Below, piece by piece: positions 2,258 to 59,311 of a DNA stretch of 64,000 nucleotides. The DNA comes from Liolophura sinensis (taxonomy: Eukaryota; Mollusca; Polyplacophora; Chitonida; Chitonidae). The notes under the pieces were generated by a model that searched no databases, had not been told where the DNA came from, and was given only the letters and a program-made list of their open reading frames with translations. The stretch's first letter is position 1, and every line of letters starts with the position of its first letter. The stretch lies in NCBI RefSeq assembly GCF_032854445.1, contig NC_088297.1, positions 19,663,127-19,727,126 on the forward strand, written 5' to 3'. The position numbers and the translations under genes were made by a program.

Positions 2258-3360
2258 TCATGGCAAGTTCTCTGCTTTAACACCGGAAATCTGCCTATCA
2301 TTGTCAGGGTCAGAGTCATTTTCAATGGACAGCGCCTCACATTTTGTGTTAACAGTATACAAAGTAGGAGCAGGCTGTAGGGAAACTGATGAAGATGCAG
2401 AGCGGACTTTTGACTGAGACGAATGCAAGATGTTGCTCATTTCACGATGGTTGTCTACGGATGGCTTGTTAACATAGCTTCTCACACTCGATTCGCTTTG
2501 ATGACCTGTCACTGACATGACATCACTGACGGACAAACCAGCGTCTGCGAACAGAGAGGTAGCTGTTGCGCTGACACAGAGATTAGTATAACGCCGGCTG
2601 AGATTTGCATCTTTAGATATATCAGCCATTAGGGTCCTCTGAGTTTTAAAACCCATTGCCTGACTTGCATACCATGGGGATGGCCTGTCACAAATTGTAT
2701 CAGTATCAGCTAAGACTGGGAAATTGGTTAGAGGGCGCTGAAAAAAATACTCACAATGCGAGTTTCGCCTTTTAAGATAAAGTTTCAGACTTTTAACAGG
2801 GCATGTGTCATCTCCAGTGGCATACATTCTGGGATGTCTAACAGAGTCTCTGTACATTTTGTTCCTCTTACTGTACAATATCTCTGCATACTCAACCCCA
2901 GCATCATCAAATTTAAAATCAAATGAACTAGCTGAAAGATCTCGTAAACCATCACGACCAAAATGCAAGCTTATTTCAAACCAAACTTTTCTCACAAGTG
3001 ATTTTGGAGAACTGTTAGAGAGGGTGCCACTGGAGTAAAGTCTCCTTAAATCGGTCTCAGAAATGGGCTTATGATGGACCGTGATGTCTTTTCCATCACG
3101 GCACTTCTCTTTTATTATTCCTGCCAGAACATTATTTGACATCACAAACTCCCGATCATTCATTATATTTATGTTTCTCTCAAAAGGTGGAGAATTCAAG
3201 TAGCGATTAATGGAAGCTCTTATTCCAATTAGAGCCGACTTGGAATAACATTCACCTCGCTTACTGCGAGCTTCAGCATAAAAACGACGCAGCAGGATGT
3301 TCAACTCTGTACTGGTTAGCCCCTCAAAATCTCTGGAAGTGTTTGTTTCAGCAAGCCAGT
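2258..3360 (-). CDS. Gene A coding exon 4: Crypton-type tyrosine recombinase domain, active site lost
   Basis: Begins after a GAATTTCAG acceptor and ends at TGA (2260-2258). It carries the rest of the core-binding domain (IGIRASINRYLNSPPF) and the catalytic fold, ending in VTGHQSESSVRSYV, the conserved end of this family. HxxR is replaced by LxxS in YTNLCVSAT, and the first arginine box (FGRDGLRDL) is about three residues shorter than the family form. The C-terminal tail is acidic and ends with a VKAE SUMO-type motif (718-721). Known Crypton recombinases need these arginines and the histidine, so catalysis is unlikely. Confidence 0.83.
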
Positions 3361-6300
3361 CTGAAATTCAAGACGCCACTTAGAAAACAAGGCCACACAG
3401 AGATCTTATTAAAATATCACACTGTCACCAGGTAAGAAAAATTTGACTAAGTTTTACTCATACGTATAAGGATGCTTAGAGAGTGTGTAAATGCACATAA
3501 ATGCTTAAAATGCTTGTGTACATAGATTTATCTGATTTCATATTTATTTTTCGTCATATTAAGCAAAGGTTAAACTGCAGTTGTGATTACAACTATTTGG
3601 CACACTTTAAATTATTAACAAACCTTTAAAAACGTGCACTCCCCATTTTGTTTGTTTGCCCGTTGTTCGATCAAATCTCTTGCTAGCCAGTTCTTGAAGC
3701 CGTGATTCAGTTGTTGGCTTGAATCGACCAGGCTCTTGAACAGACTCTAAGCATGAAAGAAGTGTCTAGTCATCACTGTCTCTCAAAAATTTTTCCATAT
3801 TGTTGCCTGTTGTTAATTGACCTCTTACACTCGCCAATCAGCTACAGAATCAATGCTGACTTTAGACTGCATTCTCGAGGTGCAATCTGTTAAATTCTAC
3901 CAGTTAAATGAAAAAGTGCCAACAATTATTTCATACAATGTGTAGAATTCAACAAATCACACAGTGTGAACTCTGGTTGTAGAATAATCTTTGTCCTATT
4001 TTCCTTTGCCTATTTCAAATGGGACGAGTTGATATAACAAATTACACACTGAACGTGTCTTAACTGCAAGAGCTATACATACAAACAACTTACGTAGGTT
4101 CAGATTTGTGTAAGCGTGTAACAAGCAAAACTTGAGTTACTCCAAGTAAATGTTACTGTATTTGTTTCATCATAGAATCATAATGATGAATACCACTTCC
4201 ATTTTATTCCTAGAGAAACAGTAACTTGTGACATCTTGAGTTACATGTTAGCAGCTCTTTATTAAAAAATTAAAACTAAAAATATTTTTGGATAAATACT
4301 ACCACTGATTAAGTTTTTATGCATGTAGGCATGTAGTTTTAAAATACACTGGACAATCCATCACAAATTACAACAATATAATGGCTCAGTACATTTAAGT
4401 AACCAATCAGCATCGATTCTGTATCCTTTAAATTTGTGCTGACACACTTGTAGGTTACAAATGATCTAAACACTTCTACAAGTTTACATTTTCTCCTTGA
4501 ATATAAACACTCTTTAACATGCAGTTCCATTTTGTTTGTTTTCATCTGATGTGGGATTCATTCATAATAAACAGAATAATCTTTCCATAACCCCATAAAA
4601 CAATGAACTCATCCGACAATTAATCATGCCTCACAAGACTGCTGGCCTGTAACTGTCTAGACAATAAAAGAAACTTTTAGATATACATGTAGGCTGACTA
4701 TGGAGCACAGCTTATGCCAGATTTTGAAAATGGGGTGTCACCTTCACAAGTTTATTATTTTCAATGTATCTCGTGTTTATTATGTTTTGTTTTTTTTTGT
4801 CAGAATTGTCTGTCTTAATGACACCCACCATGCACAGACCTTAATTATTGCAGGGACACAGTTTTCACTAACTTACATGACACTTATGTTAACTGCACAG
4901 ATGACCAAGCTAATTCTTCTATTTTCCCTGTATCTCTCTTAATTCCATCAGAATAATCACCATGACATTTTCTCCATGAATAACCCTTAGTTCCTACTAG
5001 GAAAGAGGTTTCATTAAATTACATGACACTGGGTCAGGTTATCTGTGCATGTACATGGCCAAACACCTTGCCCACTTACATGTACATTTAGCCAGAATCT
5101 GAAATCAGGGTGTCTCGTTTCTCATTCTATTTCCGTATCTCTTCTACATGTACGTTAATTTATTCAGAATAGCGTCTCAAAGCCATTGAGAATCACCTCC
5201 CCTCCCCCTCCGCTGCTAAACCTGCCTACCCAGCACAAGCTGGATTTAAACATGTCCCCACACTTTCCAAGGCATGACAGTACATTTACATGTGTATGTA
5301 CTGTTACTTTGTACAGTTTCTTAAAAAATGTGACAGTTCATGAAGTTCATAAACAACAAGTTGGCTTCAGTTTTCAAACAGTTCATGGGAAATGAATGCA
5401 GCTTTTCCTTCATACTAACTTCACAATTCAGCAATTAAAACACCTGAAAACAATGCTCTGTGATCACATTGGAAAGTAATTCAGATATTCAACTTGCTTG
5501 TTGTTGAGATGTGGAACAAAAGATGCTGGTAAAGAATGGCAATACTGCTTTCATTTCTAATTTCAAAACTACTAGTAAAGTGAATCATTTTAAATCTGTT
5601 CAGCTTTTACTTGCAAATTTTTTCCACTGTTCCACCATTCCATTGATTTGTACCGATACCTATCTTTACCAACTAAATTAGGTTCCTTTCTCTCACAAGC
5701 AGTTACATACTAAGAAAATGAATGCAACAATTAAACATTTACAGTGATAAAGGTCCAAGAGGGTTTATACCGACCAGTTTATGGTAGGCCTTAATCTCCA
5801 GTTTTCTCTCAAACATACTTGCATGTTTCACCACAGCCATTTGATGAACAGCAAATCAATTCATTTTCAATATTATAATACGGCATTTAAGATTTAAACT
5901 TGTAAATGGACATCGTCCAATAAAAATGTGCAAGCAAGGCAAGCCAAGTTTCGCAAAATAAAGGCAACCTTTTTTCTAAATGAAACTGGCTTATAGGCAA
6001 CAGGAAGCACAAGAGTGTAAACAGATTCTAAAATCAGATTCATTGCTGTATTGAGACAGCAATACTGTGTTGCTACGATACAATTAGCAAAGTACAAACC
6101 TCCTTACTCTCAGAGTTTAGGTAAAGAACCCAAATGGAGAATTTGGACAAATATTTTAAAAAGACACAGAGCAGTGATTTCAAAAGTGATAAATCATAGA
6201 GAATGGTCTAGAAATCCACCTACCGTTTAATTCTGACTGGTCTAATGTGTCCATTGATATGCTACCTTCGGCTAGACTACTGTTGCTTGTGACGGTTGCG

Positions 6301-7692
6301 GATGGTCGGTTGGGTGAAAACGTTGATGTGGATGTGGTAGGCTGTGCAGAGGACTGAAAGTTTGTGGAGTTATCTGCCCATTGGATGTTTGCTGACTGGT
6401 CAGACTGGTCTTGTAAACTAGCTGAATAGTCCATATCGCTTACAGTTGCAGAGTCATTGGTTCCTGATGGCATTTCAGGGTTTTGGTCTTCAAATGCGCT
6501 TCCTAGGACAGATATGAGGCTTTGGTTCAGTGGGGATTCTTCAGATGGGTTTTTCCGGACTTTAAAAGGTGTGCTGCTATCTTGCGTGTCGCTGGACACA
6601 GAGTCTCTGGCCGGACGTTTCCGACTATCAGGCTCCAGTGCCTGGTGAGAATGTAAACTGACTGGAAATACACCTCCCTGGTTGTCCTCCGAGGGCTCAT
6701 CCTTTATCACGACAATATCATCCGTGTTCTCACTCAAATGCGGAACTGCACCCATTGTATCAGCCCCTGAAAGTCTGTTATTGACATCACTCTGCATATC
6801 TGTCACAGTCTGAGACCGCGTCTGGCCCTGCCCACTTTGTGCCATCCTGCTGTGGGAGTTCACATTCCTTCTGTGGAATGCACTGGACCGCGAGTACATC
6901 CCACCCCTGGAGAAGCCTAGGCCCGTTCTTGGGGCAAGTCGACTTCCCAGGACCTTCTTCACCGCAGGGGCGGTTGCGGTGCGCAAGCCCTTTAGCCATG
7001 ATGGATCTGGCTTTTCCCCTGAACAGTCTAAAAAATAAAACAGAATTCACACAAATCAAAATAATTATATAAGACTCCTCACAGTATTTTTATTAAATTT
7101 CTGTTTAATTCAAACTAATTCTTCAAAATTTTAAAAAAAGTTTAACATTTCTCGAGTCAATATTCTGACAACTGAACATATTTTGCTGGTAAACCAGTCC
7201 TCAGAAGATTGGCATACAACTTTCAAGTTCCCTCAAGTCAGCAATAAAGTCTTTCTCTTTGAATGAACTATAGCCGACAATGTCTCTTCCACACAGCGCA
7301 TCTTAAATGACATACCAGCTTTAAGAGCCTACTGTCTTTGTTCTGACATGCTTTGACAATATATTATTTTGAAAATAATAGTGTTGCCTTCCTACTTCAT
7401 CTCTCATCAAATGATTTCATTTAAATCAAGCCAAGTTTTGAAAGCTACATATCTGCTTTTTCGTCTTTTATTTTTGTGATGCTCTTTGTTCATGGTTTAA
7501 ATCATGCAAAAAGTAATCACAAACCTAAGATCATACACTTGGCATACCTAAAGAAATGGCCCCTTTTGATTTATACTCTGCCAACCGCAAATCCAACCAG
7601 ACCGCAAATTGTGACAAGACGATGGGTTCGCTGCAAAGTTCTCCAATGATCGATGCAAATTTGAACTGTACTCTCTCTAGAGACACACCCAT
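2258..7692 (-). CDS. Gene A: conserved N-terminal module fused to an inactive Crypton-type tyrosine recombinase domain
   Basis: Four coding exons (7692-7548, 7027-6224, 3746-3624, 3360-2258) join with GT-AG borders, all in phase 1, to give about 724 residues. Residues 1-48 are the domain shared with genes B and C. Residues 49-317 are a disordered Ser/Gln/Thr-rich linker with a basic PDSRKR patch (181-186) and an IKDE SUMO-type motif (156-159). Residues 330-655 resemble the DUF3504/Crypton recombinases domesticated in vertebrates as ZMYM, QRICH1, KCTD1 and KIAA1958. The catalytic HxxR of this family reads LxxS (618, 621) and the first arginine box is shortened, while Gly-His (643-644) and Tyr653 remain. 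I infer a nuclear, DNA-binding but not recombining protein. An extra exon in the 2.5-kb intron between exons 2 and 3 cannot be excluded. The lineage-specific name is unknown to me. Confidence 0.82.
3361..3623 (-). other. Gene A intron 3
   Basis: A 263-base intron with a GTTTGT donor and a TTTCAG acceptor on the minus strand. AT-rich, no repeat recognised. Confidence 0.7.
3624..3746 (-). CDS. Gene A coding exon 3: start of recombinase core-binding domain
   Basis: A 123-base exon with a TGCTTAG acceptor and a GTTTGT donor, phase 1 at both ends. It encodes the first helix of a Crypton-type core-binding domain (RTTGKQTKWGVHVFK), which continues in exon 4 as DWLAETN. It was found by following the phase, because it is too short to stand out as an open frame. 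Confidence 0.75.
3747..6223 (-). other. Gene A intron 2
   Basis: A 2.5-kb AT-rich intron. It holds two copies of a short dispersed repeat (around 4705-4960 and 5034-5165). The minus-strand frames here lack coding character, but a further phase-1 exon would fit the gene structure and cannot be ruled out by eye. Confidence 0.6.
4705..5165 (+). repeat. Dispersed repeat R8, two diverged copies
   Basis: Two stretches share a GCCAGA(A)T(C/T)TGAAA..GGGTGTC core followed by a T-rich part. A third copy lies near 8216-8345. Non-coding, family unknown. Confidence 0.4.
6224..7027 (-). CDS. Gene A coding exon 2: disordered linker with SUMO and NLS-like motifs
   Basis: Begins after a TTTTTTAG acceptor. 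The split codon gives Asp, then CSGEKPDPSWLKGLR, matching the start of exon 2 in genes B and C. It is rich in Ser, Gln, Asn and Thr, with no globular domain visible. It carries DDIVVIKDEPSED, a SUMO-type motif with an acidic tail, and EPDSRKR, a basic patch also found in gene C. It ends in phase 1 at a GTAGGT donor. Confidence 0.82.
7028..7547 (-). other. Gene A intron 1
   Basis: A 520-base intron with a GTATGC donor and a TTTTTTAG acceptor, both clear on the minus strand. Nothing else seen. Confidence 0.7.
7548..7692 (-). CDS. Gene A coding exon 1: conserved ~48-residue domain
   Basis: Starts at the ATG at 7692-7690, encodes MGVSLERVQFKFASI and ends in phase 1 at a GTATGC donor. It is 145 bases long, exactly like gene B exon 1, and its protein differs from gene B at only two residues while 26 of the 48 codons differ silently. 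The sequence looks mostly helical with a conserved WLDLRLAEYK stretch. No family is recognised. The exon extends 5' to an acceptor at 7751-7752, so 7693-7751 is 5' UTR. Confidence 0.85.
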
Positions 7693-7751
7693 TTTCACCT
7701 TTCACTGCTTATGATGCTGGATGATAGTTGGCCACCACTTGTGTCAGGGAT

Positions 7752-11400: not shown

Positions 11401-11402
11401 GC

Positions 11403-11854: not shown

Positions 11855-13603
11855 GTAAGTTTTATGAAATTGTGTCATGTTTTCTCTTTTGTTGAAAGCC
11901 GTTGACTCACTCCTGGAACAAAACTGTCTACTGATATGTAACAGAAAGGGTAAACATGAAAACAGATATGCATTGCAAAATATTAGCTGGTGTTGTTGTT
12001 GTTTCGCCTTCCCCCAGGGTGGGAAAATCTCCAGATCCGATTTTAATTAACTTTGTATATCAATTTTTGGTGATTTCTAGTGTAAGTAATATTGTTATTA
12101 TATTGTAACGTAAAACTGTTAAGACAATAAAGGTTTACGAAGTTTATTTGGTGTGAGTTGTAAAGACAAGGCTGCTCAATTACATCTAGTCACATGAGGT
12201 AAGCCGTAGAGGTATTCCATCTACATGGAATTTAATGAAAGCCCTCTTGAGTTCATCTGTCTAGATAGTCTGGTGGTAGAGGATTTGATATCATTTGAAT
12301 GAAGAATCTGCTTATCACATCTGATATGAGCGTCATCAGCAAGCAATTGCCAACACTTGACAACTGTTGCAAGGAAGACGGACCTCCTAACGTAATCTGT
12401 AGCCAAACCTGCAGCCCTGAGTCGGTTTGAACCACCAATGATCAACTTTTTGATATAGCTAGTGGCTGTCACTGACGGCGAGGCATAGGTACAGTGAGCA
12501 TTAAGAGACAGATTTCTCAATTTGGCTTGGCGTTCAGCATGAAGGGAATTGTGCAACGACTGGTTGACCCATATCAGTATATTGGCTCAAGTGGGGCGAC
12601 TTACTTGCCTTTTGTAAGTCATCTCAGTGAAGCAGCACTAAATAAAAGAGCGGTGGAAATCCATCCTCCAACAAGGAGGTGCATTACATACACTCTAAGA
12701 ATTCCTTCATCATCATATGACTGAAAAATTGTTGAGCATGATGTTAAACCCCAAGGAGACACTCGCTCACTCTCTTAGGCACATTGTATGTCGTGGTAGT
12801 TATTATAGGATGCAAGGAATGTTTCTTTTTTGTTTTCTAATATGCAGTTGAGGATGTGTCATTACATATAAATGTACAAGAAAACTTCTTAGATACAATG
12901 AGCCATTGGGTGACAGATTTCTCTGTTGGCATAATCTGCCTTATTTAAATACACATATGAAAGCATGGTGTTTATGTTTGTTCAAAATGGGTAAGAACAT
13001 ATAGAACCAACACATATATTTGAATTTTACATTTTGATCTTTTTGGCAATCCCCAGTTATATTGGTCTTTGATTTCTTTCAGGCCATTTGGAATAGAACT
13101 GCATGGTGGTAACAGCTGGACCCATCCGCTGATTTAGAGGTATAATTTACTTGTGATAAATTTACAAATTTCAGTTTTCAAGATAAGCAGTCCTGTACGT
13201 TTTGGGGGGTAACTGGACATTTACATGCTCTTGAACTGCTGAGTTAATTTGATTTCCCAAAAAAGGCTCGGTGTGTTTACATGTATCTTAATATACCATC
13301 TAGAGGTTGCTCTCGAATTGTTACTAATATTGTCATATTGCAGACTGCTCTGTACTGGAACAAAAGCTGAGAACCATTCATGCAAACTGCCATGGGAACC
13401 ATGAAACTGGAGGTGCTTTTAGTTTAATTTGTTTTTCACTGTCCATAACTTTATCACATTGCAGATGGAATATGTATTCTATGAAACAAGCATATCAGTT
13501 AACTTTAATCAATATCCTTATCCATGCAGCCTATATGGTGGAACAGAAGATATTTGTATTTTTTAAAATGTTCTCACTTTTGTGTTGTTTTTGTACCCAT
13601 CAG
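11855..13603 (+). other. Probable 5' UTR introns of gene B
   Basis: Holds an S2 SINE (12530-12775). A possible non-coding exon at 13083-13139 lies between TTTCTTTCAG and a GTATAA donor. The minus-strand frame at 12221-12556 overlaps the SINE head side and resembles no protein I know. Confidence 0.35.
12530..12775 (+). repeat. S2 SINE, 5'-truncated copy
   Basis: Starts GCATGAAGGGAATTGTGCAA and ends with TGACTGAAAAATTGTTGAGC then CACTCGCTCACTCTCT. Matches the full copy at 60474-60838 but lacks the tRNA-like head. Confidence 0.7.
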
Positions 13604-13628
13604 GCTGGGGGACGTTTATCTCGTGAAA
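13604..13628 (+). other. Gene B 5' UTR part of exon 1
   Basis: Runs from the acceptor TACCCATCAG to the ATG. It implies upstream non-coding exons. Confidence 0.55.
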
Positions 13629-13773
13629 ATGGGTGTGTCACTTGAGAGAGTACAGTTCAAGTTTGCCTCCATTATTGGAGAGCTCTGTAGCGAGCCATTA
13701 GTTCTCTCTCAGTTTGCTGTATGGCTGGATTTGAGGTTGGCAGAATACAAATCCAAAGGATCTATATCCCTGG
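13629..13773 (+). CDS. Gene B coding exon 1: conserved ~48-residue domain
   Basis: The ATG at 13629 is chosen because the same Met starts the domain in gene A and an acceptor (CCCATCAG, exon from 13604) lies just upstream. It ends in phase 1 at GTAAGT. Protein is MGVSLERVQFKFASIIGELC onward. The domain is unrecognised. Confidence 0.87.
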
Positions 13774-16700
13774 GTAAGTAGACGAATCTACCCTGATGGA
13801 AGGACATGTATTAGATAGCAAAACAAATCCATTTATTTATTTATTTCATTGCTGCGATACACCATACTCAAGAAAATTTCACTTATTCCTTATGTAACTT
13901 TTCTTTTCAAGGATTTACCTCCCTTGATAGTAGGAATTTGTCCTTTGTTTCTTAAGACTATGAAAAATAATGTTGTTTACTTCACAATGCACAGATGCAA
14001 ATTGAAATGATTCAAAAGTTGTTGACCTTATAAGAAATTGTACAATCAGATTAATCACTGTGGTTATTTAAATTGCCTCACACCTGTACTTCCGATTACT
14101 AACAGCATTGGACACTTGAACTGATACCTACCATACAGGGGCCATGAAGAGGGAAGTAATCTATGTATTACAAAAACACGGAATACAACGGCATCAAGCA
14201 TTGCCTGGGGGAAACCTCCGACCATCCACAGACTGCTAGCAGATCTTCCCACATGCCACGACAAATCTACATGCGCTCAAAATAAAACACAACACTAGAC
14301 CAAATATATATACATGTACATAGATGCATGGTTAAAGCATCCCACATAAAGTTTAAACAGCATACCTTTTTATTTTTGGTGATGTTGCATAACATAGCAA
14401 TTCAAAGCAAGCAATATCGTACACACTGAGAAAAGCGCCAGGGCCTTTATGTTATTCATTTTTACCAACCTGAACCTCGCAATTCATATATATTTCTAAA
14501 AACTGTGAGCCCTGTTTTGCCTTTTAGCCATGTGAGCTTGGGGTATGAGCGACGCATCGTCCTTGAAATATATTAAAAACTGTGGCAGGTTACTTGAGAA
14601 GATTTATTTGGATCTGCCTGTCTGAATAAATCATTTTTACTTATGTTTTGACATATGGATATTTTTTCTTTTTTTTTTATGCATGTCTTTTGTTCTGTTT
14701 GTATTTGTATTCTAAAAGTGTTGCCTGTCTCATTTCTATAGTTGTAAGTGGGATTTGTAATGATCATTTGATGCATTGCACATTTTAGAATTATTGATCT
14801 TCACTGTTCACGTTTTCCTACCTATATCTGGTCCATACTTGAAGTTGTAAGTACAAATCCAGCTCCTGCCTGGTTTCTTCCCATCAGAATGCTAGCTGCT
14901 GTCATATAAGTGAAATATTTAGGAGTATTGTGTAAATCACCAATAAAATCAAATCAAGTCCAGCTCTTCCTAGTGCAGCTCCAGCATTAAGACAAATTAG
15001 CTGCAAGTATCTGGCGAAGGGTGATGGTTTACAGGAGGGGGCACCCTGGTTTCCTCCTGTCATTCTGATTTCCGTCTTACAAGTGAAAAATTCTTGAGCT
15101 GTGTAAGGCATTAAACATCAATCAGATCAATAGATAAATCAACTGGCATGAAGTGAGGAAGTTTTTTTTTCCTGCAGATTGCTGTGGAATGCTCCCTGAG
15201 CCTGATTGGTTGAAAGGGTTAAAACCACCCACAATACCTTCTGAACCAGTGGCCCCTGGGGATCAAGCTTTGAGTGGAGACCTGGGGGACAGCTTCTTTT
15301 CTCTGGCAAAGGAAACCAACTCACAAGATTTTACCAGCCTGAGACATTCCTTCTCTTCACACAAATCTCAAAGACATTTCCCGAATCATCAGATCGAGCC
15401 TCAGTCATCTCCAGCCGTGTATCGACATGCAGAGAGTGCACAATCGGAGACCAATATGTCGCCAGATGTTGTTGTTGTACCAGAAGAGGATGATATCCCC
15501 ACGGTTGTCAACTCCAGTCATGCCCAACAATCATATTTTACTTCCAAAAATTCTACAGTCTCTTCCCATTCAGGTTTTGTTTTTCATTACTGTTTTTGAT
15601 TTCGTTTGATTTAAACTATAGATATGTTGGTGTAGGATAAACTGTGATGCTTATACCCCCACAGAGGAGGTGATCTTTTTTTATCAGCATTGTTTTTTGT
15701 CTGCAAGTCTAGCTGTCTGTCTGTATATTCAGCTCTTTGCAAAGTAATGAATAACGTAATTCAGGGCTTTGGAAGAAATTTTGTTGACAGGTGGATAAGG
15801 ACCACTCACAATTCAGTTTGGGATCCATACCCAGGAATTTTTTTAAACAATTCTGCACAGAAAGAACACAAAAATGCCCATTTTTCTGTCCCTTTGTTGG
15901 AATTCTGTTTTGTACATTGAGTTGATTCAGATGTTAGCAATCAAGTGCTTTCTAGTTTCACCATTTTTTTTCCTCAGATACACATAATTTTTAGATAAAC
16001 TTGGTGTGCTATTGTTAGATAGCATTATATTCTCTCAAAGTTAATCACACAAAACAGCTTGACAGCTATGCAAAATAAGTAAAGAAGAAAAAAACAGTAA
16101 AAGTAAAGCCATCAGAATTTTCTCCCGATAACTCAATTATCAAACGATGCATGAAACTGTCGTTCTTTATTTTGTGATACGCGGAGGATGTGTCATAATA
16201 TAAAGGTACAGAAGTAAAAACAAATCCTGTGAGCCCACATGGGAGAATGTGGGGGTGAGGGGGTCTAAGCTGGCCTTCTAAACTGATAAGTTCACCGATG
16301 ACGTCATCTCTGGCCACGTCGGAAAAAATGCTTAAAATATAGAGGTAATTGAAGGTAATATGAAATATGAAAATTTAAAGAAAAAAATATTTTGGCATAA
16401 TTTCCTTCATTGAAAGCATAATATTTGTTTCAGAGTTCTTCTTCGTGTAACTTTAAAGTCATCCACCATATTTATCATACCACCCTCCACAAGCCCTGCC
16501 ATAATACATACTCAGCTCACAAGTCCTTCACATTCGGCCCTACCACTTCATGCATCTGAATTGACGTGGCCTTTTTGACGTTTACATGTAGATTCATCCG
16601 TGTGCTTTAAAATACAGATTCTTTAGTATCAAAAGTCATTGTCAAAACTGCTTTCAAGTTTCTTGACTGACAGAGTATTAAATTTCTGGAGATTGCGGAC

Positions 16701-17849
16701 CACTTTTCACCCTGACGCTTTGTGTTTAGGACAAAAGAGAATTAAAAGCAGTAACGGCCTTGTAATATGACCTTTGAGTCGTTCCAGATCAACTCACAAC
16801 GGGGAAATGTGGAGTAGATTCGCGCAGTGAAAAATGTAAGCTTAGTATATGAAAACACGAAATATCTCAAAGAAGTATTTAATATAATTATTCCTGTGTT
16901 GTTTTGGCTTTCAGAACCATCTCTGTCACACGACTCATCACCGTCTAGGAGAGCTTATCACGTGTCCAACTTTTCTCACTTGAGATCCACTCACCGAGTT
17001 GCCCCGTATAAATTTAGCGCACCCAACGACAGCGAGAGTAGGAAGAGAAATTCCACTGAAAGAAACATTGCCGCAGCGGTAAGCAGCTTTCAGAGGTGGA
17101 TCCTCGAAGAACCGCGCAACGACAAAAGGGAAATAACTGATATCTCCGCCCCGGAACTGGATTCGTATTTGGCGGAATTTTTCTCTGTCATGAAGAAGCC
17201 GTCTGGTGAAGACTACACACGGCGTTCCTTCAGTGTCTATCGTTATAGCTTGGACAGATATTTGAAAGAACACAAGTATCCCTTCTCCATTTGCAAGTCT
17301 GAGGAGTTTTTGAAGAGCCAAAGGTCTTTCCATCGACGGAAACTGTCCCTGCCAGAAATGGCAACGGATCAGTATCGTATCAATACCGCCCAGCTTCCTC
17401 CTTCCTATTTGCTTCCATTAGACAAACCCAGTGCCGCTAACATCAGTTCTTTCCCAGCGGGAACCAGCTATGGTTCCAACGCAATGTATATTCCAGAGAA
17501 CCCACCTGAACAGTCTGACGATTTTGATGTTGTAGAAGTTATGGAGTTAAATGAGCTTCGAGAAGTCGAGAGGGTAACAGGGTATAAACAGAGTGCTACA
17601 GCATCAACAAGAACTGAAAAGTCGGGAGAAGAAAGGATGGGATGGCATACAGAACCAAAGACAATACAAACAGGGCCTGTTGAAAATCCCGGCACAATGG
17701 AGGAATATCCAGAGCAGAAATCCATCAAAAACCTCTCTTTAGAAACCATAGCGAAGGAAGGCCAACAGTCTGACGCTTCCAGAGATTTTTTTGATGAGAA
17801 AGAAACGAAATTCAATCCTAACTCAAACAGTGGTTCTGAAGGTGAATGA
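13629..17849 (+). CDS. Gene B: conserved N-terminal module fused to a Crypton recombinase core-binding domain
   Basis: Three coding exons (13629-13773, 15178-15573, 16915-17849), phase-1 junctions, about 491 residues. Residues 1-48 are the shared domain, 46 of 48 identical to gene A. Residues 49-181 are a disordered linker starting DCCGMLPEPDWLKGLK and containing VVVVPEEDD (146-154), which looks like a SUMO-interacting motif. A basic DSESRKR patch (219-225) precedes residues 226-322, which resemble the helical N-terminal, DNA-contacting half of KIAA1958-type Crypton recombinases (ELDSYLAEFFSVMKKPSGED and SLDRYLKEHKYPF). No catalytic half follows. The last 160 residues are acidic and unrecognised. 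I infer a nuclear DNA-binding protein. The final GAAG is followed by GTGAAT, a possible phase-1 donor just before the TGA, so a longer splice form may exist. Confidence 0.82.
14285..14560 (+). repeat. Dispersed repeat R4, copy 1
   Basis: Shares CACTAGACCAAAT and TTTTGCCTTTTAGCCATGTG blocks in order with 19635-19960. The 42690-42985 copy shares the later part. Non-coding, class unknown. Confidence 0.5.
14855..14965 (+). repeat. S1-type SINE fragment
   Basis: Matches the S1 3' half: CCTGGTTTCTTCCCATCAGA then ATAAGTGAAATATT. The end is divergent. Confidence 0.5.
14985..15145 (+). repeat. S1-related SINE, divergent subfamily
   Basis: Carries CCTGGTTTCCTCCTGTCATT and a tail AAAATTCTTGAGCTGTGTAA then GCATTAAACATCAATCAGAT, similar to S1 but with TGTGTAAGGC in place of TACGGCG. 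Confidence 0.5.
15178..15573 (+). CDS. Gene B coding exon 2: disordered linker with SIM-like motif
   Basis: Starts after TTTCCTGCAG with DCCGMLPEPDWLKGLK, the motif shared with A and C. Ser/Gln/Pro-rich. The VVVVPEEDD stretch aligns with IVVIKDEPSED of gene A, but the SUMO-acceptor lysine is replaced by proline. Ends phase 1 at CAG then GTTTTG. Confidence 0.82.
15574..16914 (+). other. Gene B intron 2
   Basis: A 1.3-kb AT-rich intron ending at TGGCTTTCAG. No repeat recognised with confidence and no coding frame supported. Confidence 0.7.
16915..17849 (+). CDS. Gene B coding exon 3: KIAA1958-like core-binding domain plus acidic tail
   Basis: Begins with EPSLSHDSSPSRRAYH after the acceptor. 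The recombinase-type domain spans roughly residues 226-322 of the protein. The usual LKxxGKG linker and catalytic domain of Crypton proteins are absent. The tail ends NSNSGSEGE then TGA (17847-17849). Confidence 0.83.
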
Positions 17850-22478: not shown

Positions 22479-24230
22479 CCTATTTACAAAGATCAAATTA
22501 TTTGTCAGGTGATGTGCATGTGTGTAAACAGGTGTGATGTTCGCTTTTGTGCCATGAATAATGCATGGTGTGTATTGTCATAGTATACTGTAAAGCCTAA
22601 ACCATTTTTTTAAGATAGGGAAACTGTTGGAAACTTGTCAATAAAGAGGGCAGGATATATACCGGTACTCAGATAGTGTTCTGAAATTTTCGGTGTGATG
22701 AGTGGAAAATGCTCTGTTAATATGCACGCTCTTTCAAGCCAGAATTAAAAAAAAATTACCGTGTATATTCAGAAACTTCAAGAAAGGTCGATTTTGTTTA
22801 CGTGCTTTCTTGGCGTGTTTACTTGTTAACCTTATGACGTAATCACGAGGGTGTCGCTTTACAACAGGACAATCCCACTTTGGTCGCATCCTGAATAAGT
22901 CTGCTATATATACACAGTGTAAACAATGGCATAGCCAAAGAACATCCAGAGAAGAAAGATCAGATTTCTGCCAGCAGTTTATTTACATCTTAAATACCTT
23001 ACCAGTGGCTACGTCCCTTTGCGTCAAACTCGGTGACCCATATCCACTTTTATTTGGTTATACTTTCCTGTAGCCTGATGTTTTGTTTGCTTTGGTAAAA
23101 ATACAAACATCTTCCTGACCCACTTTAAGCTTTGACGTACCAAGAGGCGAGTGTATTTTGGCTTATTCATTCAACCCATCCTCCCGATCAAGGTCAGGCC
23201 TATGCATTGATCGATGCGTAGTTATACATGAAAATACTTAAAATGTGCATGTGTGGTCCTCTTCCGGCGAATAACACTTTCATAAAGCACTCAACTTACT
23301 GGCACATGCACTATTTTCAAGGATTACAGGAGTAAATTCACAAACACATGGAGCAGTTCTGTTCATCAACAAACGTAGATTTTCATTCAGGAAAGCGTGC
23401 ACTTTTGAAAATTTAAAGTAGTTCCTGGCCCATTTTTCAAGATGGCGACCCCTGGTGTCTCAGTTTCCCATTTCACAATTTAACAAAACCGGGCACATTT
23501 TGTCGAATTCATATACAGCCACGCCGCAAAGGCTCTGTCTATATACATGCATTTGATCTCGCTATAATTTAGTGGAGCACCTGTGGATGTAACATCTTAA
23601 CGTGGCCAACATCGTCCAAGGATAAAGGTGAGAATTCTGTTTTACTTAACGTTATGTACGCAAAAGCAGCAGATAACTGAATCTTTTATTATACATTACA
23701 GTCTTCGAAATTCATGCTCTGCCATTTTGCCGTCTGTAAGTTTACCCCTGACTTCGTGCGAGGCCTGTGCCTATTATCGTAATCATGGCAGAGCGTTACC
23801 AATGCATAGCGGTAATACATGTATTACCATTTAATTAACAAAAAAAGTGTAACCCAATAAGCTCAAACCTTTTTTCGGCAAATCCTCAAAAAAAAAACCT
23901 CTCTGGCCTTTGGCGTGAAGATTATAATGCTGAAGGGATGCATAATTAATTTATGATAATTACAGTAGCTTAAACCATAAAATAAATATTCATTTCAGCT
24001 AATGAAAACATATTGTTATATTACCCAGCACAACCAGAATCCTCCTCCAGCTTTCACTTCAAGTTTAATGCATTAATCATTATTAAGTTCTTTCGTTAAC
24101 AAATTAATGGGATAATGAGTGGCAGTAACTACTAACTAGGCCTACTGTTGCCTTAAATGTAATAGATTCGAAATTACATTTCTTCCGAAACCATGTGTCA
24201 AGAGAGGGTAGATTTAGAATTAATATACTT
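22479..24230. other. No gene seen
   Basis: Intergenic AT-rich DNA. No coding frame or repeat is supported. Some CpG near 23440-23590 without a clear promoter. Confidence 0.4.
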
Positions 24231-43381: not shown

Positions 43382-43468
43382 AATCCCCGTTTGAACAACC
43401 CTCACCCAGACCAGCTGGTCTTTTCCAGAACAGCTCCTGTCTGCGCATATTGATGTCTTTCCCACACC
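43382..43468 (+). other. Gene C 5' UTR part of exon 1
   Basis: Starts after a TTTTGGTTTCAG acceptor and runs to the ATG. Confidence 0.55.
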
Positions 43469-43622
43469 ATGGGTTCATTGGAGGAAATCTTGGAACGAGT
43501 GCAATACAAATTCGCTTCCATCATTGGAGAACTCTGCGGGGAACCTCTCGCTTTGTCCCAGTTCGCTATATGGGTGGACTTAAGATTAGCTGAGTACAAA
43601 TTAAGGGGATCAATATCTCTTG
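43469..43622 (+). CDS. Gene C coding exon 1: conserved domain
   Basis: ATG in CACACCATGG context. Protein MGSLEEILERVQYKFASIIG onward. Five residues differ from gene B across the shared core, mostly conservative (F to Y, V to I, L to V, K to R). Ends phase 1 at GTAAGT. Confidence 0.85.
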
Positions 43623-46600
43623 GTAAGTTAGAGTTTTGGAATTATATTGATACAGTGGGGAAGGTCTGCCAGCCGATGGTCATGGATTTCCCCGGTTCTC
43701 TAACTGGTTTTCTCCCACCATTATGCTAACTGACGTCATATAGGTGATATTATAGGTTAAAACTCCAGTCCAATAAATAAATCATTTAATAAATAAATAT
43801 TGATACAGTGGAAGCTGCATAAACCACCGAGAAGCTAGAATGCCTGTTTTAGACAAGATTTGTGAAAAATGGTTCAGGCACCTCCTGAACTGGAGAGATG
43901 TACATCTATGTATGATGAGAGACATATAGCAAAGGGAGTTAAAACCAGAGAAGCGATGAGAATGTGAAAGCTGGCAAATGGCGATACGTAACCAATGAAA
44001 TATGTACTCATTTAGAATTTTACTGTTTTAACTGTTGATGTAAATGCTTAAATATAGCCAAATTACTCAACCCCTAGAACCAGTAGAAAGGTGTACTTTC
44101 TTTTTAATGCCTCAAAAATAGCTGTTACTGTGGAGACATGATGTACATATCTGCATGTGTGTCCCTAAACGAGGTGCCAATTCTTGTGGTTTCATGGGCG
44201 AAATTTTAATCTGGTGTTATCATCATACATGTTGACGTGATAATGGATGTATAAATCCAGCGGTTAGAATTAATAATCAGAGTGCTGTAATTGGGTCAAG
44301 TTTCATGTCTAGCATTGATGCAGCGTTGTTATATCAAAGGTAAGTTATTATAAAGGAAATAGTATTGTCGATTAAGCGGAAATAATGTTGAATTAATGAC
44401 TATGCACAATCAAAGAAACAAACAGTGAGCATGTTCATTTTCACCGACTTCATGTACGTGTATGTATGTTACTGTTTTCGTAGATTGCTCTGGCCAAAAA
44501 CTGGATCCAGTCTGGTTGAGATCTCTGAAGACGCTCAACAATGATACCTCACAACCCCCTGCTCAAGGTTCCGTAGACCAGACTTCTCAGCCAAAGCACT
44601 TCTCTCCAGTGACCAGCAGCACAAACCCGTGCCTCTTTGTCCATGGCCTGCCTGCTCCCTATACTGACAGGAACACAGCTGCGCAGCACCCTCTTCCCAC
44701 ACCTCCTCACGCCCACTCCGGCCAGACGCCTTACACCCATGGCCTCACACCTCTTCTTGATAGGGCCATACTTCCGCCAACCACACCTGCAAGACAGGAA
44801 CCTGATTCCCGCAAACGAAGTGCCTCACCCAACATAATGTTGGTCAAAACAGAGCCAGTAGAACACAACGATTTCACCATGAGTGTTCCACCGAACAAGT
44901 CTCATCTGAAAGCAAATGAACCCCTGTTAGCAGAAAAGGGCTCCATCTCTCCAGCAAAGCTGGCACGTCTTCAAGATGGGCCGCCACCACTAAAGGCCAT
45001 TGTAGATGGTGCTGAGTTACATTCCAGCCTGTCTTCATGTTGTTCTGACCTGAAGTATATGGACACTAACCGAGATGCAGGCTTCAAACCCGACCAGAAC
45101 ACAGAGTGCCTGGAAAGTGACATGGAGCTGATGGCGTCTACCTCAGGGAATGGGTCGGATGGACCTGAAGACTTGTCCACATCTCGCTTGAACTCTGTGA
45201 CGTGTAATGGACAAGCCACAGTCAAGGAGACAGAAAACACCTGCAAGACTACATCAGGTAGGTGATTATTTACATGCAGTGTTTCCACTGTTTGTTTGTT
45301 TGTTTGTTTCACAGTTTCATCATTTTAGTAAAGCTTCTAATTAGTTCTAATCTTATTATGACCTCTCTCTAATCTGGTGACGTCACCATCTACAATGTGG
45401 TGTTTTTAAGTAAAAGTGTATTATGGCATGGAGATACAGTAGTTATTCATTTAGGCAATTTCGATTTTCAGTGTTAAAATCGACACACCCTTTTTGTGGT
45501 GTTGCTTTATTATCTACAAAAGATCCACGTATTGAATTACAAAAAAATTACATTTGTATTAAATATTTCAGGAAATAAAAAACATTCATGAGTTATGGAT
45601 AATATATTATTGTATATATTACATGTACACGTATGTTCAATCATTCTGATTAGCGGTCATATGCTATAAAGCGACATCGGCACGGCATAAAGGCCGTCAC
45701 CTTCATGTCGTAATGTGAAGTCTCATATTGAGACTTTTTCTATCATTGTTTCTGACGTTCTTTGTGAGCTCTTATTTAGGCGCCTTTTAGGATGGATTTA
45801 TTTATATACATGTACATGTATTTGATTGGTGTTTTAAATGTCAAACTCAAGACTATTTCGCCTACAAGGTGGTGGCCAGTGTTATAGTGGAAGGAAACTG
45901 GCAAGAGGCCAAGGGAAACTCGCCGACATCTTCAGGTTGCTGGGAGACCTTCCCACGTTTAAACTCACAGCGACCACATTGGTGAGAGGCTCCTGGGTCA
46001 TTGTGCTGCGCTGGCATGCTAACCACCTCTTTAAATGGAATTGGACTGTGTATTATGAAATTGTTAAGAGGCCTCTATAAACAGCCTTGTAAATTATATA
46101 TCAATGTACATAAAAGTTCTTATTATAGTAGTTCTTTGCTCTGTGAACTGAGCAACATTTTAAGGAATGTAAAGATCACAAATTATGTAAAATTTTTTAG
46201 GCAGTATCATAATGCTGTGTCTATAAATGGCTCAGCGATTGCCATGTCATGCATGATGAGGTAATACGCAGAGAAGAGTTGCTGCTGAAACCACACAGTT
46301 CATTCAGTCCAGATTATAGTACAGTACCTACAAAGGAAAAAACAAAAACTTGCTCTGCATTTGCTGCATTTAATACATTCCACAGGATTGTATAACATAT
46401 TTTCAGCGAACTGACAGATAAATTAGATTTACGTAAAAGTTTGACCTTCAAAACAAATTAAGAAAAAACATGTTTATATGAATACCTGATTGTGTAGTGC
46501 AGGAGCTACATGTAAATACAGGTTACACGGGGATTTGGTTTAAGTCAAGACACAATTATTGTGATACGATCAAATGTCATACGTCATGCTGCCACGTGTC

Positions 46601-49600: not shown

Positions 49601-52600
49601 CGGATTGTTTGTGTTTTCTGATATGACTTCTTGCCTCATCACCACGATGCCAGTGTTGTTGAAGATTTCTGTACAAAATTTACTACCTACTTCCTCAGCC
49701 TCTTGGCACATTGAAAGATCAACTTTTAGTGCAATTCATGTATTTTTTTAAATTTGATTTATTTATTTATTTATTTATTTGATTAGTGTTTTACGCCGTA
49801 CTCAAGAATATTTCACTCATACGACGGCGGCCAGCATTATGGTGGGTGGAAACCGGGCTGAGCCCGGGGGAAACCCACGACCATCCGCAGGTTGCTGGCA
49901 GACCTTCCCACTTACGGCCGGAGAGGAAGCCAGCATGAGCTGGACTTGAACTCACAGCGACCGCATTGGTGAGAGGCTACTGGGTCATTACGCTGTGCTA
50001 GCGCGCTAACCGACTGAGCCACGGAGTCCCCCTTTTAAATTTGATTTTTAAGACAAAACTACACTTGTTGGATTGACCAGTTTCAGGGCTTCACAGAAAG
50101 AATAATTTCATCAGTCCACACAGAATAATGTTTGAGTAGGCACCTTGCAAACATGCGAAAAGGTTGAAGAAATGCAATGTTGATAGCAGTGATTTAAAGC
50201 AAAAGGTAGAGAGCGATGCATGCGCTGTAAGGAGTTTTGAATGCTTTGGTTTCTTGGTAACTGTACCGACATGTATATAAAAGTAAACATCACAAGATGT
50301 GCCACAAAATACAGGTTCAGTACAGCTCAGTCTAAAAGTCAATTGTTTACTGCTGGTATCGTGCTCCAAAATACTGAATAAAGCTGCTGAGGCGCGCACA
50401 AAATTATCGTCGAAGGTGTGAATATAGTTCTGCCTACAGATCCGCTCTTGTTTGCAAGTGAAAGTGCAGCCTGTGTGTTTCAGCAGTTTGAGCATAGAAG
50501 CCATGAAAAGTGGAAAGTTTATCTTGCGATGTGTAACCTACCTCTGCACAGCCAAATCAACTTGATTATAGGGAGTTAATATGGGATTAAATCATCGTCT
50601 GGTGTTGACGATCGCCACACTAATTTTGATATACATTTATATTATGCCATGTAATACCATGCAACAAATATTGTATAGTAAACTGGGCAAATCTTCCCCT
50701 AAATTTCAACCAACACGACATTCTTGTGGATAAAGCATTAGCGGGAACTTCTCACCTAGGACATCGCCCCAACACAGGCTGATAGCAGTCTTGTGTGGCC
50801 GGGCCTCTGTTTGATCCTTCGCGCTGATATCTTATCATTTGTCGCGTTTGTATAAAGGCGACATCTAAATGACATCATGTATTCATATTGCAGCAAGGAT
50901 CGTGTCAGCCTCATGTCAAAAGAACTGAAAAAGGCCTATGCTACTTCCGCTTGACGGACGTAGGCCTAGTGGCAGCAATCGGTGTTCTCAACAAATAACC
51001 TGAAATGGCTGGTGTATTTTTTTGTTTATTCTGACTGTTGTGTTTTGGAAGTTTCCAAGATTAGCCGACATTGATTGTTTATACAGATCTACTCAGTTGC
51101 TGACCGAATTGCCACGCGGGAAGTTGTACAGAAGAGGGGTTTACACAGTGAATTCAGCCCAAGTAGCCAGTTTTGAGAGATTAATTTATTCCTATTGTTC
51201 ACGAATTTCAAAACAATACAGAGTGTGTCAGTTATTAAAGTTTGACACTTGTGAGTATTATTTCCTTACTCCAATACCTCATATCTATTGTTCTTTAATT
51301 TTTGCAAAGTGTCATTGCTGGACACTAAGCCTGCTTGAGTTCTTCTTCCAAGTCTGTCTACAAAACCTGTAGGATTGCGCTAATCTCCTGCCTGGTTTTG
51401 ACTTTCAGCCTTTTAAGTGGGGATTAAAAGAAAAATCATTTAACAGCTACATGTAGTACATGACTTGTTTAAAGCTGATGTTGACTTTTTGATTCTTATG
51501 TTTAATATCTAAGTGTACTTTCTCAGAATTTTCTGACAATTACTTCTACATACATCTGTTAGTGGTCTTGCGGTAATATGGATGGAGGAAACCGGAGTCA
51601 GTTGTGGATCTTGGAGTTTGAACTTTTTTTATCGCTGAAGGTAAAAAAAAGTTCTGTTGTGACATGTGACGTCTGTCAGAAATATTTTTGATTATGTTTA
51701 CTGTCGCATGGGCATCAGAGAAAAAGTGTCACAAAAAGTTATTTAGAGCTGAAAGATGGAAAAAATTGAGGAACTGAGTATTTGTGAAGTTAAGTTCCTG
51801 CCAGATAGAGGTGTCACGAGTGATATGGCAGGACAGGTAATCGGTTGACAGAATTGATCGTCTTTGACATTTTACATTATACAGTTTTACCTTCAACAAG
51901 AAAAGAGTTTGAACTCAAAACATTCCTCTTGGGAGTAACATTGACAAATCTCCTGACTGATAGGCTATCCGATCAGCTGCATTAAAAACAATGTTCTGCT
52001 GGAATGAAAATTTGTTTTGATATGAATAATGAAGTGTAGGCTTTTTTTTTTTTTTTGTTTTTGTTTTAGCATGTGCACCACTTTTTAATACTAATGGTTT
52101 ACTTTTCAGCATTGGCACTGATCATTTTTTAATCAATTATGGATTTATTAGCTTTAGTTATTTATTTATTTGATTGGTATTTTACGCCATACTCAAGAAT
52201 GTTTCACTTATTCGAAGGCGGCCAGCATTATGGTAGGTGGAAACCGGACAGAGCTCAGGGGAAACCCACGACCAACCGCAGGTTGCTGGTAGATCTTCCC
52301 ACGTACAGCCGGAGAGGAAGCCAGCATGAGCTGGACTTGAATGAGTGATTTTGGTTTAACGCTACATTGGCAATATTTCAGCCATATCGTGGCGAAGCTG
52401 GGCTTGAAGCTCACAGCGACGGCATTATTAGCTTTAATACCACAAGCCAAAGACAAGTGATTGGTTAGGATATCCAGCCAATCATTAATTTGCAGATAAA
52501 TGTACTAAGGTTAAATAAATCAAATACTGGTGGAATTATATGCAATATTAGGCTACCCTAAATGACCTAAAAATTCGGCCACAAAAGAGCATTTTTGTAG

Positions 52601-58600: not shown

Positions 58601-59311
58601 TTGCTGTGAGTTCAAGTCCAACTCATGCTGGGTTCCTCTCCGGCCGTAGAAGGGAAGGTCTTCCAGCAAACTGCGAATGGTCGTGGGTTTGTTTTCAGTT
58701 AGTCAGCCTTTTTAAAATGCGTAAGGTTGTTGTACCATTGAAACACCAAGTTAGCGAAGTACCTGTAATAAATTTGATTTGCATCACAGAATATTAACTC
58801 TCTTCGTTTCTTCTGTTGTCTGCTCTCCAGTGCTACAGCCTTTTGGAGATTTCAGCTGCTTGAGGAACGGACCGCGCTTTTCCCAACAATGGCATCAGTT
58901 CGTCACCAACCGAAGCATCAACCTCAAAAGCATGTCCTCTGATCGTTACAGCGGTTATATGGAACTGCTCAAAGTGGCGCAGTCCAAAGTACACGAGCCA
59001 AAGTCAGTGAAAGAACACAAGATGTTGTACAAGTTTGACTTGTGGAGGGACGGGTCTACTGAACGCCTCATCAAGAAACGGCACAAAGACACCGATCCTG
59101 TCCGCTTCTACATTCCGACGACCAGCTCTACCATGCTCTCCTCGCAGTCCATCTGGACTCCGGCCACGGGGGCATCAAGAAAATGCTGACACTCTGTAAG
59201 GAAAGGTACGCCAATATCACAGCCGATGCGGTCAAGCTATTTACGCACCTGTGTTACGACTGTCAAACAAGAAAGAGAACAATTCCCCCCAAAATCAGGG
59301 ATAACTCCTAG
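43469..59311 (+). CDS. Gene C: conserved N-terminal module fused to a Ginger/KRBA2-like integrase zinc-binding module, frameshifted
   Basis: Three coding exons (43469-43622, 44484-45257, 58831-59311), phase-1 junctions. Residues 4-51 are the shared domain, with a short extra N-terminus. The linker starts DCSGQKLDPVWLRSLK and carries PDSRKR (158-163), a VKTE SUMO-type motif (172-175) and PEDLS (279-283), a CtBP-corepressor-type motif. Exon 3 matches the region before and including the H2C2 zinc domain of Ginger integrases and of KRBA2-like proteins (NLKSMSSDRYSGYMELLK, LYKFDL, then HLDSGHGGIKKM, YANIT, LCYDCQTRK). The frame changes by one base near 59119. Read straight through, the protein stops at 59189 (about 428 residues) and loses the zinc ligands. 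The DDE catalytic core is absent either way. The lesion may be an assembly error. I infer a nuclear regulator. Confidence 0.68.
43623..44483 (+). other. Gene C intron 1
   Basis: 861 bases from GTAAGT to TGTTTTCGTAG. Contains an S1 fragment (43655-43802). Confidence 0.75.
43655..43802 (+). repeat. S1 SINE, head truncated
   Basis: GGGGAAGGTCTGCCAGC, TTTTCTCCCACCATTATGCT and an AATAAATAAAT tail. Confidence 0.7.
44484..45257 (+). CDS. Gene C coding exon 2: disordered linker with SUMO, NLS-like and CtBP-type motifs
   Basis: Starts after TTTTCGTAG. Pro/Ser/Thr-rich. EPDSRKR, VKTEPVE and GPEDLSTSR stand out. Ends phase 1 at TCAG then GTAGGT. Confidence 0.83.
45797..46025 (-). repeat. S1 SINE, diverged
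   Basis: ATTTATTT tail and TTTGATTGGTGTTTTAAATG, ending in TGTGCTGCGCTGGCATGCTA and ACC of the head. Confidence 0.7.
46590..46900 (+). repeat. S4 SINE
   Basis: tRNA-like region (GTCTCGGGTGGCTAAGGGTT, CAAAACCAGGCC), middle TGTTGGTGGTTTGCAATGTT, tail TCAGTGAAAAATTCTTGACT then GTGGCATTAAGCCACAATCA. The tail resembles S1 with TGTGGC in place of TACGGC. Confidence 0.55.
46872..46958 (+). repeat. 21-bp tandem repeat, 4 copies, derived from an S4 tail
   Basis: TGGCATTAAGCCACAATCAA plus one base, repeated four times almost perfectly, starting inside the SINE 3' end. Each unit contains a GGC..GCC palindrome. Confidence 0.9.
47000..47110. repeat. Half of MITE M2
   Basis: TTACCCTAAATGACCTAAAA followed by TTTCACCC..AGAGTGCATTTTA, matching the left half of M2 at 52553-52776. 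No right end found. Confidence 0.45.
47121..47383 (+). repeat. S1 SINE, near full length
   Basis: From GGTGCGCCAGCGCAGCATAA to an AAATAAATAAATAAATAAGT tail. Confidence 0.82.
48970..49222 (-). repeat. S1 SINE, near full length
   Basis: Tail at 48970, head ending ATCTGAGCCACGCAGGTCCC at 49222. Confidence 0.82.
49345..49650 (+). repeat. Dispersed repeat R3, copy 2
   Basis: TTTACATCACTACCACCAAT, TCATCATTCGTCAGTAAAAT and AGTATTATTAGAGACAAAGG blocks. Compare 20495-20800. Confidence 0.55.
49755..50033 (-). repeat. S1 SINE, best-preserved full-length copy
   Basis: From the ATTTATT tail to head GCGCTAACCGACTGAGCCAC then GGAGTCCCCC. On the minus strand it has tRNA-like A and B box sequences. Useful as the family reference. 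Confidence 0.88.
50052..50140 (+). repeat. Dispersed repeat R7, copy 1
   Basis: ACAAAACTACACTTGTTGGA, TTCACAGAAAGAATAATTTC and ATCAG match 60899-61010 closely. Confidence 0.6.
50141..52154. other. Gene C intron 2, no feature recognised
   Basis: Unique-looking intronic DNA. The frame at 51022-51372 has no recognisable similarity and no splice context. Confidence 0.4.
52155..52340 (-). repeat. S1 SINE, head truncated
   Basis: TTATTTATTTGATTGGTATT tail to GCCAGCATGAGCTGGACTTG. Confidence 0.82.
52341..52425 (-). repeat. Tail of another SINE type
   Basis: TGAGTGATTTTGGTTTAACG, GCAATATTTCAGCCATATCG and TGGCG match a SINE 3' end common in molluscs. It replaces the missing head of the preceding S1 copy. 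Confidence 0.55.
52553..52776. mobile_element. MITE-like element M2
   Basis: About 224 bases between inverted TACCCTAAATGACCT and AGGTCATTTAGGGTA. No coding capacity. A half copy lies near 47023. Confidence 0.65.
53750..53885 (+). repeat. S4-type SINE fragment
   Basis: AGTCAGTAAACGTATTCGCC, AGAGGTCGGTGGTTTATGCC and CACCTGGTTTTCTTCATCC follow S4 order. Confidence 0.45.
53926..54135 (-). repeat. S2 SINE, tail truncated
   Basis: AGTGCTGCTTCACTGAGACT through GGTCTTAGGTGTGGCTCAAT to ACCCTGGATCTACCG. Missing the 3' tail. Confidence 0.7.
54255..54560 (+). repeat. Dispersed repeat R3, copy 3
   Basis: TTTTACGTCACTGCCGCCAC, GACAAGTTTGAC, TTTTAGGCTTAGCCTCA and AGAGAATACTTACATC blocks shared with 49345-49650. 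Confidence 0.55.
55305..55465 (-). repeat. S1 SINE, head truncated
   Basis: TATTTATTTCAATGGTGTTC, TACGCCATAGGTAAGAATAT, ending in CCCTTCCCACAAATGG. Confidence 0.75.
56636..56800 (-). repeat. S1 SINE, diverged and truncated
   Basis: GTATTTATTTATTTGATTAA tail, GAAACTGAGCTGAGTGCGGG and TTAGGTTGCTGGCAGGC. Confidence 0.7.
56801..58014. other. Gene C intron 2, no feature recognised
   Basis: AT-rich, with short A/T runs at 57820-57930. No coding frame supported. Confidence 0.4.
58015..58152 (+). repeat. S1 SINE, head truncated
   Basis: GGCAGTAACTTGCGGATGGT, CAGTTTCCTCCCACCATATT and a TAATCAAGTAAATAAATT end. Confidence 0.65.
58530..58690 (+). repeat. S1 SINE, head half only
   Basis: GGGGCCTCTGTGGCCAAGGT and GGTTAGCATG head, ending at AATGGTCGTGGGTTT. 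The 3' half is absent, so it was lost after insertion. It lies 140 bases before gene C exon 3. Confidence 0.78.
58831..59311 (+). CDS. Gene C coding exon 3: Ginger/KRBA2-like H2C2 module with frame change
   Basis: Acceptor CTGCTCTCCAG. The first frame reads VLQPFGDFSCLRNGPR to VRFYIPTT. The conserved continuation DQLYHALLAVHLDSGHGG lies one frame over from 59120 and ends at TAG 59309-59311. His in LAVH and SGHGG and Cys in CYDC are the H2C2 ligands. In the first frame translation ends at TGA 59187-59189. Confidence 0.7.

Follow-up and report, generated by a model that had tools for sequence, protein, structure and literature searches.

In Drosophila, transcripts of mod(mdg4) join constant exons to one of many alternative 3′ exons, which encode FLYWCH or zinc finger endings, and lola is similarly organised. 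KRAB zinc-finger proteins pair a constant effector region with a large, diversified DNA-binding repertoire, and their genes lie in clusters. Here we describe a gene family of the chiton Liolophura sinensis in which the arrangement of mod(mdg4) recurs according to RefSeq models, each isoform pairing the constant exons with a different 3′ exon from a large set. It is represented by three genes, A, B and C, in a stretch of 64,000 nucleotides (assembly GCF_032854445.1, contig NC_088297.1, positions 19,663,127 to 19,727,126 of the forward strand), referred to below as the window. Whereas mod(mdg4) is a single gene, the chiton endings are recombinase-derived and distributed over dozens of genes; in contrast to the KRAB zinc-finger proteins, the diversity lies largely in alternative exons and most members have no zinc fingers.

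A second precedent is provided by domesticated Crypton recombinases. In jawed vertebrates, the two isoforms of KIAA1958 draw on separate exons for their DUF3504 domains, which differ from each other, the alternative splicing being experimentally unconfirmed in the part of the source available to us (PMC3212892). The same part lists QRICH1, ZMYM, WOC and KCTD1 as host genes whose Crypton-derived recombinases lack the full catalytic set, and there Kojima and Jurka discuss what domesticated recombinases are likely to do, namely bind DNA or proteins (PMC3212892). The chiton genes resemble the QRICH1/KCTD1 type in their incomplete catalytic residues, in the match of the fold of their core-binding domain (CBD) to QRICH1 and in the alignment of the gene A ending with KCTD1-type proteins. 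They differ from KIAA1958 in number, with up to 25 CBD exons in a gene against two endings, and in content, KIAA1958 carrying a DUF3504 domain whereas the chiton array exons encode the core-binding part alone. That portion of PMC3212892 describes no tandem arrays of endings for DUF3504 genes, unlike the situation in the chiton, and domesticated Crypton recombinases have, as far as it goes, been described with one or two endings; here one class of recombinase piece supplies the variable side of a large collection of exons. One isoform of the family (P0058) is named KIAA1958 homolog by NCBI. No paper describing this chiton family appeared among the literature listings searched, and the terms ‘Crypton’ and ‘KIAA1958’ are absent from the main texts of the L. 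japonica genome, Acanthochiton and five-chiton papers. In our judgement the family combines mod(mdg4)-like and KIAA1958-like ideas at larger scale, with an orphan constant module.

The reading that we favour, and consider probable, is a constant-plus-variable family of nuclear regulators similar to mod(mdg4) and KIAA1958; its architecture, a constant unit with alternative terminal exons, we regard as nearly certain. It draws on exon anatomy, phases, open frames, common strand, constraint, the modelled fold and the RefSeq models; DNA binding and repression are what we infer. Splicing the window by hand gave four coding exons for gene A and three each for genes B and C, with every intron GT-AG and in phase 1. 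The resulting proteins of 724, 491 and 428 amino acids are, letter for letter, RefSeq P0016, P0023 and P0096, the products of the L. sinensis models LOC135463632 X1 (A), LOC135463772 X2 (B) and LOC135463762 (C). Their exons are:

7548..7692, minus strand: gene A (LOC135463632), constant exon 1, the 48-residue N-module, a predicted two-helix hairpin (model pLDDT 91)
6224..7027, minus strand: gene A, constant exon 2, with the SUMO consensus VIKDE followed by P, and a basic RKR motif
3624..3746, minus strand: gene A, third exon of isoform X1, in which the Crypton CBD starts
2258..3360, minus strand: gene A, final exon of isoform X1, encoding a Crypton tyrosine recombinase with its core-binding match at 3125-3361 and its catalytic match at 2411-3070
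13629..13773, plus strand: gene B (LOC135463772), constant exon 1
15178..15573, plus strand: gene B, constant exon 2, SUMO consensus not found in residues 61-300
16915..17849, plus strand: gene B, terminal exon, with the CBD at 17046-17351 and, after it, 165 residues that match no catalytic domain
43469..43622, plus strand: gene C (LOC135463762), constant exon 1
44484..45257, plus strand: gene C, constant exon 2, with the SUMO consensus LVKTE followed by P
58831..59189, plus strand: gene C, terminal exon with the extent that the RefSeq protein gives it, no Pfam match in its frame

An earlier reading of the window from its letters (the sequence-only reading) had proposed that the three genes share exon 1 and the start of exon 2, and both are indeed present in each. 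Exon 1 has 46/48 residues in common between A and B and 35/48 between A and C, a likeness far beyond chance, and the corresponding open frames (7534-7701, minus; 13509-13778 and 43454-43726, plus) are 80-96% identical to one another. Between A and B, third codon positions are 43% identical and the proteins differ at 2/48 residues; the nonsynonymous distance (dN) is 0.03 for this pair and reaches 0.11 at most, the synonymous distance (dS) being not computable (flag -1, taken as saturated). Given the third-position identity and the low dN of A against B, with dS not computable, exon 1 is old and constrained.

The same reading had given gene A a single C-terminus. Sixteen isoforms of LOC135463632 were examined, and these are exactly alike over their first 316 residues, which correspond to exons 1 and 2, and diverge thereafter. 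X1 alone ends inside the window, the 15 others in short terminal exons to the left of its first base. A CBD profile search of the 200 kb left of the window returned 25 complete matches and one fragment, without exception on the strand of gene A; the array occupies C3:19600539-19661444 (61 kb), with the fragment at C3:19655690 and the exon closest to the window at C3:19661127-19661680, 1.4 kb from base 1. These 25 further exons, additional to the recombinase ending, had escaped notice because they lie left of the window. Each of the 15 short isoforms corresponds to a different one of the 25 exons, whose AG acceptor is in phase 1 in every case (15/15); the other ten exons have in-frame AG candidates. 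In all 25 the roughly 100 residues of the domain run uninterrupted and a stop follows within 1-48 codons; the array frames were cut at stops, so that openness of the frame itself is given by the method. The joins of exon 2 to the endings are those of RefSeq models, which are predictions. A check gene, LOC135463739, has one constant unit and nine same-strand CBD exons within the 30 kb examined, of which six match its six CBD isoforms examined (again RefSeq models). In both gene A and LOC135463739, according to these models, different exons, each Crypton-derived, stand behind one N-terminus.

The array exons of gene A encode the CBD alone, and no catalytic-domain match was found in them or in the terminal exon of gene B, which ends, as had been suggested, in the core-binding half of a recombinase. 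Truncated Crypton copies were considered as the origin of the gene A array and rejected, there being no catalytic remnants beside it. Within the window, the CBD profile detected no exons besides those of A and B (next best E 0.39).

The genome searched comprised 609,464,459 bases in 632 contigs; a later correction (PMC12441733) reportedly renames the L. japonica of its publication to L. sinensis. The genome paper, published under the former name, gives 609.5 Mb and 632 scaffolds (PMC11068029). All 45 candidate N-module loci were scored and accepted, 35 on the 27.5-Mb scaffold of the window, seven on C7, two on C1 and one on C6, and the family is therefore not local, contrary to what had been supposed. 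Four distant N-modules with 53-65% identity (C1:70529833, C1:79760600, C3:9009358 and C3:7693655) are possibly, from their sequences, older branches of the family. With the CBD as query, 150 of 293 candidates were scored, and the number of CBD exons is at least 152, as C3:19655923 and C3:2134576 were found locally outside the scored set. None of the 150 contains an internal stop, in a search that reads through stops and counts them. For every one of the 150 the first N-module upstream is on the same strand and less than 100 kb away; when N-module strands were shuffled 2000 times, the same-strand count averaged 73.5 and reached a maximum of 129 of 150. Between 1 and 24 scored CBD exons belong to each of 33/45 N-modules, and none among those scored to the remaining 12, which include gene C.

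These results count heavily against the idea that the CBD exons lying downstream are for the most part relics or mobile copies, linked to the constant exons through gene prediction. Beyond the stop-free frames and matching strand, synonymous sites are saturated while the scaffold of the domain is conserved, the acceptors are in phase 1 in 15/15 cases and the gene A array has no catalytic remnants beside it. What can be said for relics is that 10/25 gene A CBD exons have no match among the isoforms examined, that C3:19655690 is a fragment and that the RefSeq X models are predictions; overall we regard this explanation as very improbable.

Returning to the constant-plus-variable family, we compared its endings with one another. 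Among 121 L. sinensis proteins the CBD profile matches 108 (A X1 weakly), leaving 13 without a match. The comparison covered 106 CBDs, P0114 and P0120 having been dropped for 40 or more gaps, and A X1 was further excluded from the tree, charge and entropy counts. CBDs of one gene are on average 38.5% identical (494 pairs), and those of different genes 36.1% (5071 pairs). Residues W242, L262, L266, Y302 and F312 (gene B numbering) are nearly fixed and many others are free; most CBDs are basic (97/105). The nearest CBD comes from the same gene in 63/96 cases, against 9.4 expected, and a tree of 105 CBDs, labelled by the nine genes that have at least four CBDs each, requires 17 label changes, against 48.3 in shuffles (0/200 as low); this tree has few columns and weak deep support, and 28/105 rows, in genes with fewer than four CBDs, were left ungrouped. 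Because CBDs cluster by gene, the arrays appear to have grown largely by exon duplication within genes. For 300 exon pairs of gene A the proportion of synonymous differences (pS) averaged 0.82 and exceeded the nonsynonymous proportion (pN) in 283, which suggests that these duplications took place long ago. A dN/dS analysis of recent copies was tried and discarded, as synonymous sites were saturated.

The sequence-only reading had proposed that one host module repeatedly acquired parts of unrelated mobile elements. Its picture of likely nuclear proteins with a host module and mobile-element-derived, probably DNA-binding C-termini stands; repeated capture as the main route does not, and we think it quite unlikely as the principal process. 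A single CBD profile covers 108 of the 121 proteins, and clustering by gene is what within-gene exon duplication gives; the endings seem to have multiplied mainly as copies of a single type of terminal exon. Separate captures did happen as well, to judge from their domains: the non-CBD endings include one of Tc5/CENP-B type, others of C2H2 type and two that match BEN weakly, the recombinase ending of A is unlike the array CBDs, and gene C perhaps holds an integrase relic. In LOC135463852, isoforms X3, X2, X4 and X1 (P0033, P0031, P0034 and P0037) end in Tc5/CENP-B, weak BEN or CBD modules, so that this one gene has DNA-binding endings of several kinds.

The predicted structure of the CBD has the QRICH1/Cre core-binding fold, with QRICH1 as best structural match, and hhalign relates the array CBDs to a Crypton tyrosine recombinase at 98.8%; the CBD profile gave no meaningful match among PDB sequences. 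Homology to Crypton tyrosine recombinase is thus found, at the level of sequence, for both the A ending and the array CBDs. The prokaryotic library NCBIfam matched 0/4 proteins.

The X1 ending of gene A, correctly described before as a Crypton recombinase except that exon 3624-3746 went unmentioned, has matches at E ≤ 0.001 to 37 other proteins, which include Tyr-recombinase proteins from bivalves and KCTD1-type proteins from sharks and rays, and aligns with KCTD1-type and mollusc Crypton recombinases. It lies far from the array CBDs (46 bits vs 78-139). In its HxxR motif the H and second R are replaced (TNLCVSAT vs TNHCVRAT in relatives), the later H and the Y-bearing motif being retained; judged by its residues, the catalytic set of an active Crypton transposon is not intact. 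Its match to PF25561 (QRICH1; E 9e-7, 29.4 bits) is below the cut-off of 30.8, and PF12012 (DUF3504), annotated on many homologues of the A ending, is absent from A and B at E up to 10; for these reasons neither gene is filed as a DUF3504 gene in the narrow sense. Relatives of the recombinase elsewhere carry annotations for BTB (P0155, Mytilus), BEN (P0153, Mytilus) or, in sharks and rays, the KCTD-type PF02214 (P0135, P0137, P0138, P0140, P0144 and P0148), partners that are a sign of repeated Crypton fusion with regulator domains.

Gene C was said to end in a Ginger/KRBA2-like H2C2 module, and this was not confirmed. The relevant match is:

59138..59278, plus strand: integrase H2C2 zinc-binding match PF17921 (E 1e-5, 26.0 bits, cut-off 25.5)

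It sits in the frame 59063-59311, which overlaps but differs from the frame of gene C exon 3 (stop at 59189), and the RefSeq protein stops before it. The exon may truly have been shortened here or have decayed, or the assembly may have slipped. The first half of the terminal exon, where Pfam gives nothing, looks Ginger/KRBA2-like by eye. The Ginger paper (PMC2836005) does not use the term ‘KRBA2’ in its main text. Ten selected plus-strand open reading frames (ORFs) of the 13.5-kb intron of gene C held no other Pfam domains.

The constant part has features of its own. The N-module is modelled as helices 5-19 and 23-42. In A, B and C it matches no Pfam family at E up to 10, and therefore no BTB; mod(mdg4) and lola, in contrast to this 48-residue, two-helix module, have a BTB domain in their constant part. 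Among PDB sequences no chain matched at E up to 10, and a Foldseek search of the PDB yielded no fold match beyond one at E 7.1. Among the matches listed (97/123 candidates; 120 listed of 125 at E ≤ 0.001, 7995 scored) none lay outside L. sinensis, in searches that depend on shared 5-residue words and are bounded by length (one to about 0.55-1.75 times 724 aa), so that coverage of other chitons is uncertain and absence elsewhere unproven. Exon 2 of gene B was modelled at very low confidence, as expected of disorder, and exon 2 is probably a disordered stretch. The SUMO consensus [VIL]KxE, often followed by P, occurs within residues 61-300 in 31/33 genes, against a mean of 2.7 and a maximum of 7 in 200 shuffles; gene B is one of the two genes without it. 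A basic triplet is present in the constant part of 30/33 genes, counted without a control.

We propose that each gene consists of a constant 5′ unit (exons 1 and 2) followed on the same strand by one alternative terminal exon or a row of them, and that splicing joins exon 2 to one of these at a time, as seen in RefSeq isoforms. A single ending per transcript would result either from alternative splicing and polyadenylation or from trans-splicing of the kind found in mod(mdg4). The target would then be chosen by the CBD, as a site on DNA or a partner already bound to it; the hairpin N-module may join family members to one another or to a cofactor, and the SUMO site may recruit repressive complexes; it is this site in the constant part that suggests repression. 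One gene could in this way yield a panel of related regulators with different targets. For this function (targeting, association, repression) we put the chances at about even.

With QRICH1 as its closest structure, the CBD may read either DNA itself or a protein that is bound to DNA. On the same anatomy, the CBDs might be protein-interaction domains that dock zinc-finger or other partners, as QRICH1 does in Zincore. The best structural match, going by entry titles and scores, is QRICH1 in the Zincore complex on DNA, and protein binding is the other likely use that Kojima and Jurka give, in the part available, for tamed recombinases (PMC3212892); we consider this possible, while leaning against it. 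A bolder form of the regulator family, which we hold to be rather doubtful, is a genome-wide, splice-selected repertoire of sequence-specific repressors made from tamed Crypton recombinases, with more than 150 DNA-binding endings on a few dozen units, mostly with a SUMO consensus; it would be the invertebrate equivalent of the repression of mobile elements by KRAB zinc-finger proteins, or would act as a code for cell identity.

The family belongs to a mollusc class that has seen little molecular study. It raises the questions of how one terminal exon is chosen among 25, what a Crypton core-binding domain targets, and whether animals beyond vertebrates and insects have large regulator families derived from mobile elements.

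Elsewhere in the window, between genes B and C, an ORF at 27219-27725 (plus strand) encodes EF-hand pairs (PF13499, E 5.6e-14) and is an unrelated calcium-binding gene, whole or in part. A short interspersed repeat has many copies with similar translations, for example at 24201-24458 and 47187-47402 (minus) and at 49758-49946 and 52158-52289 (plus); repeats of this kind can mimic coding exons. The open frame at 24974-25336 (plus) consists of a short repeated unit (GQNVKGVGNNT-like) and is probably a minisatellite.

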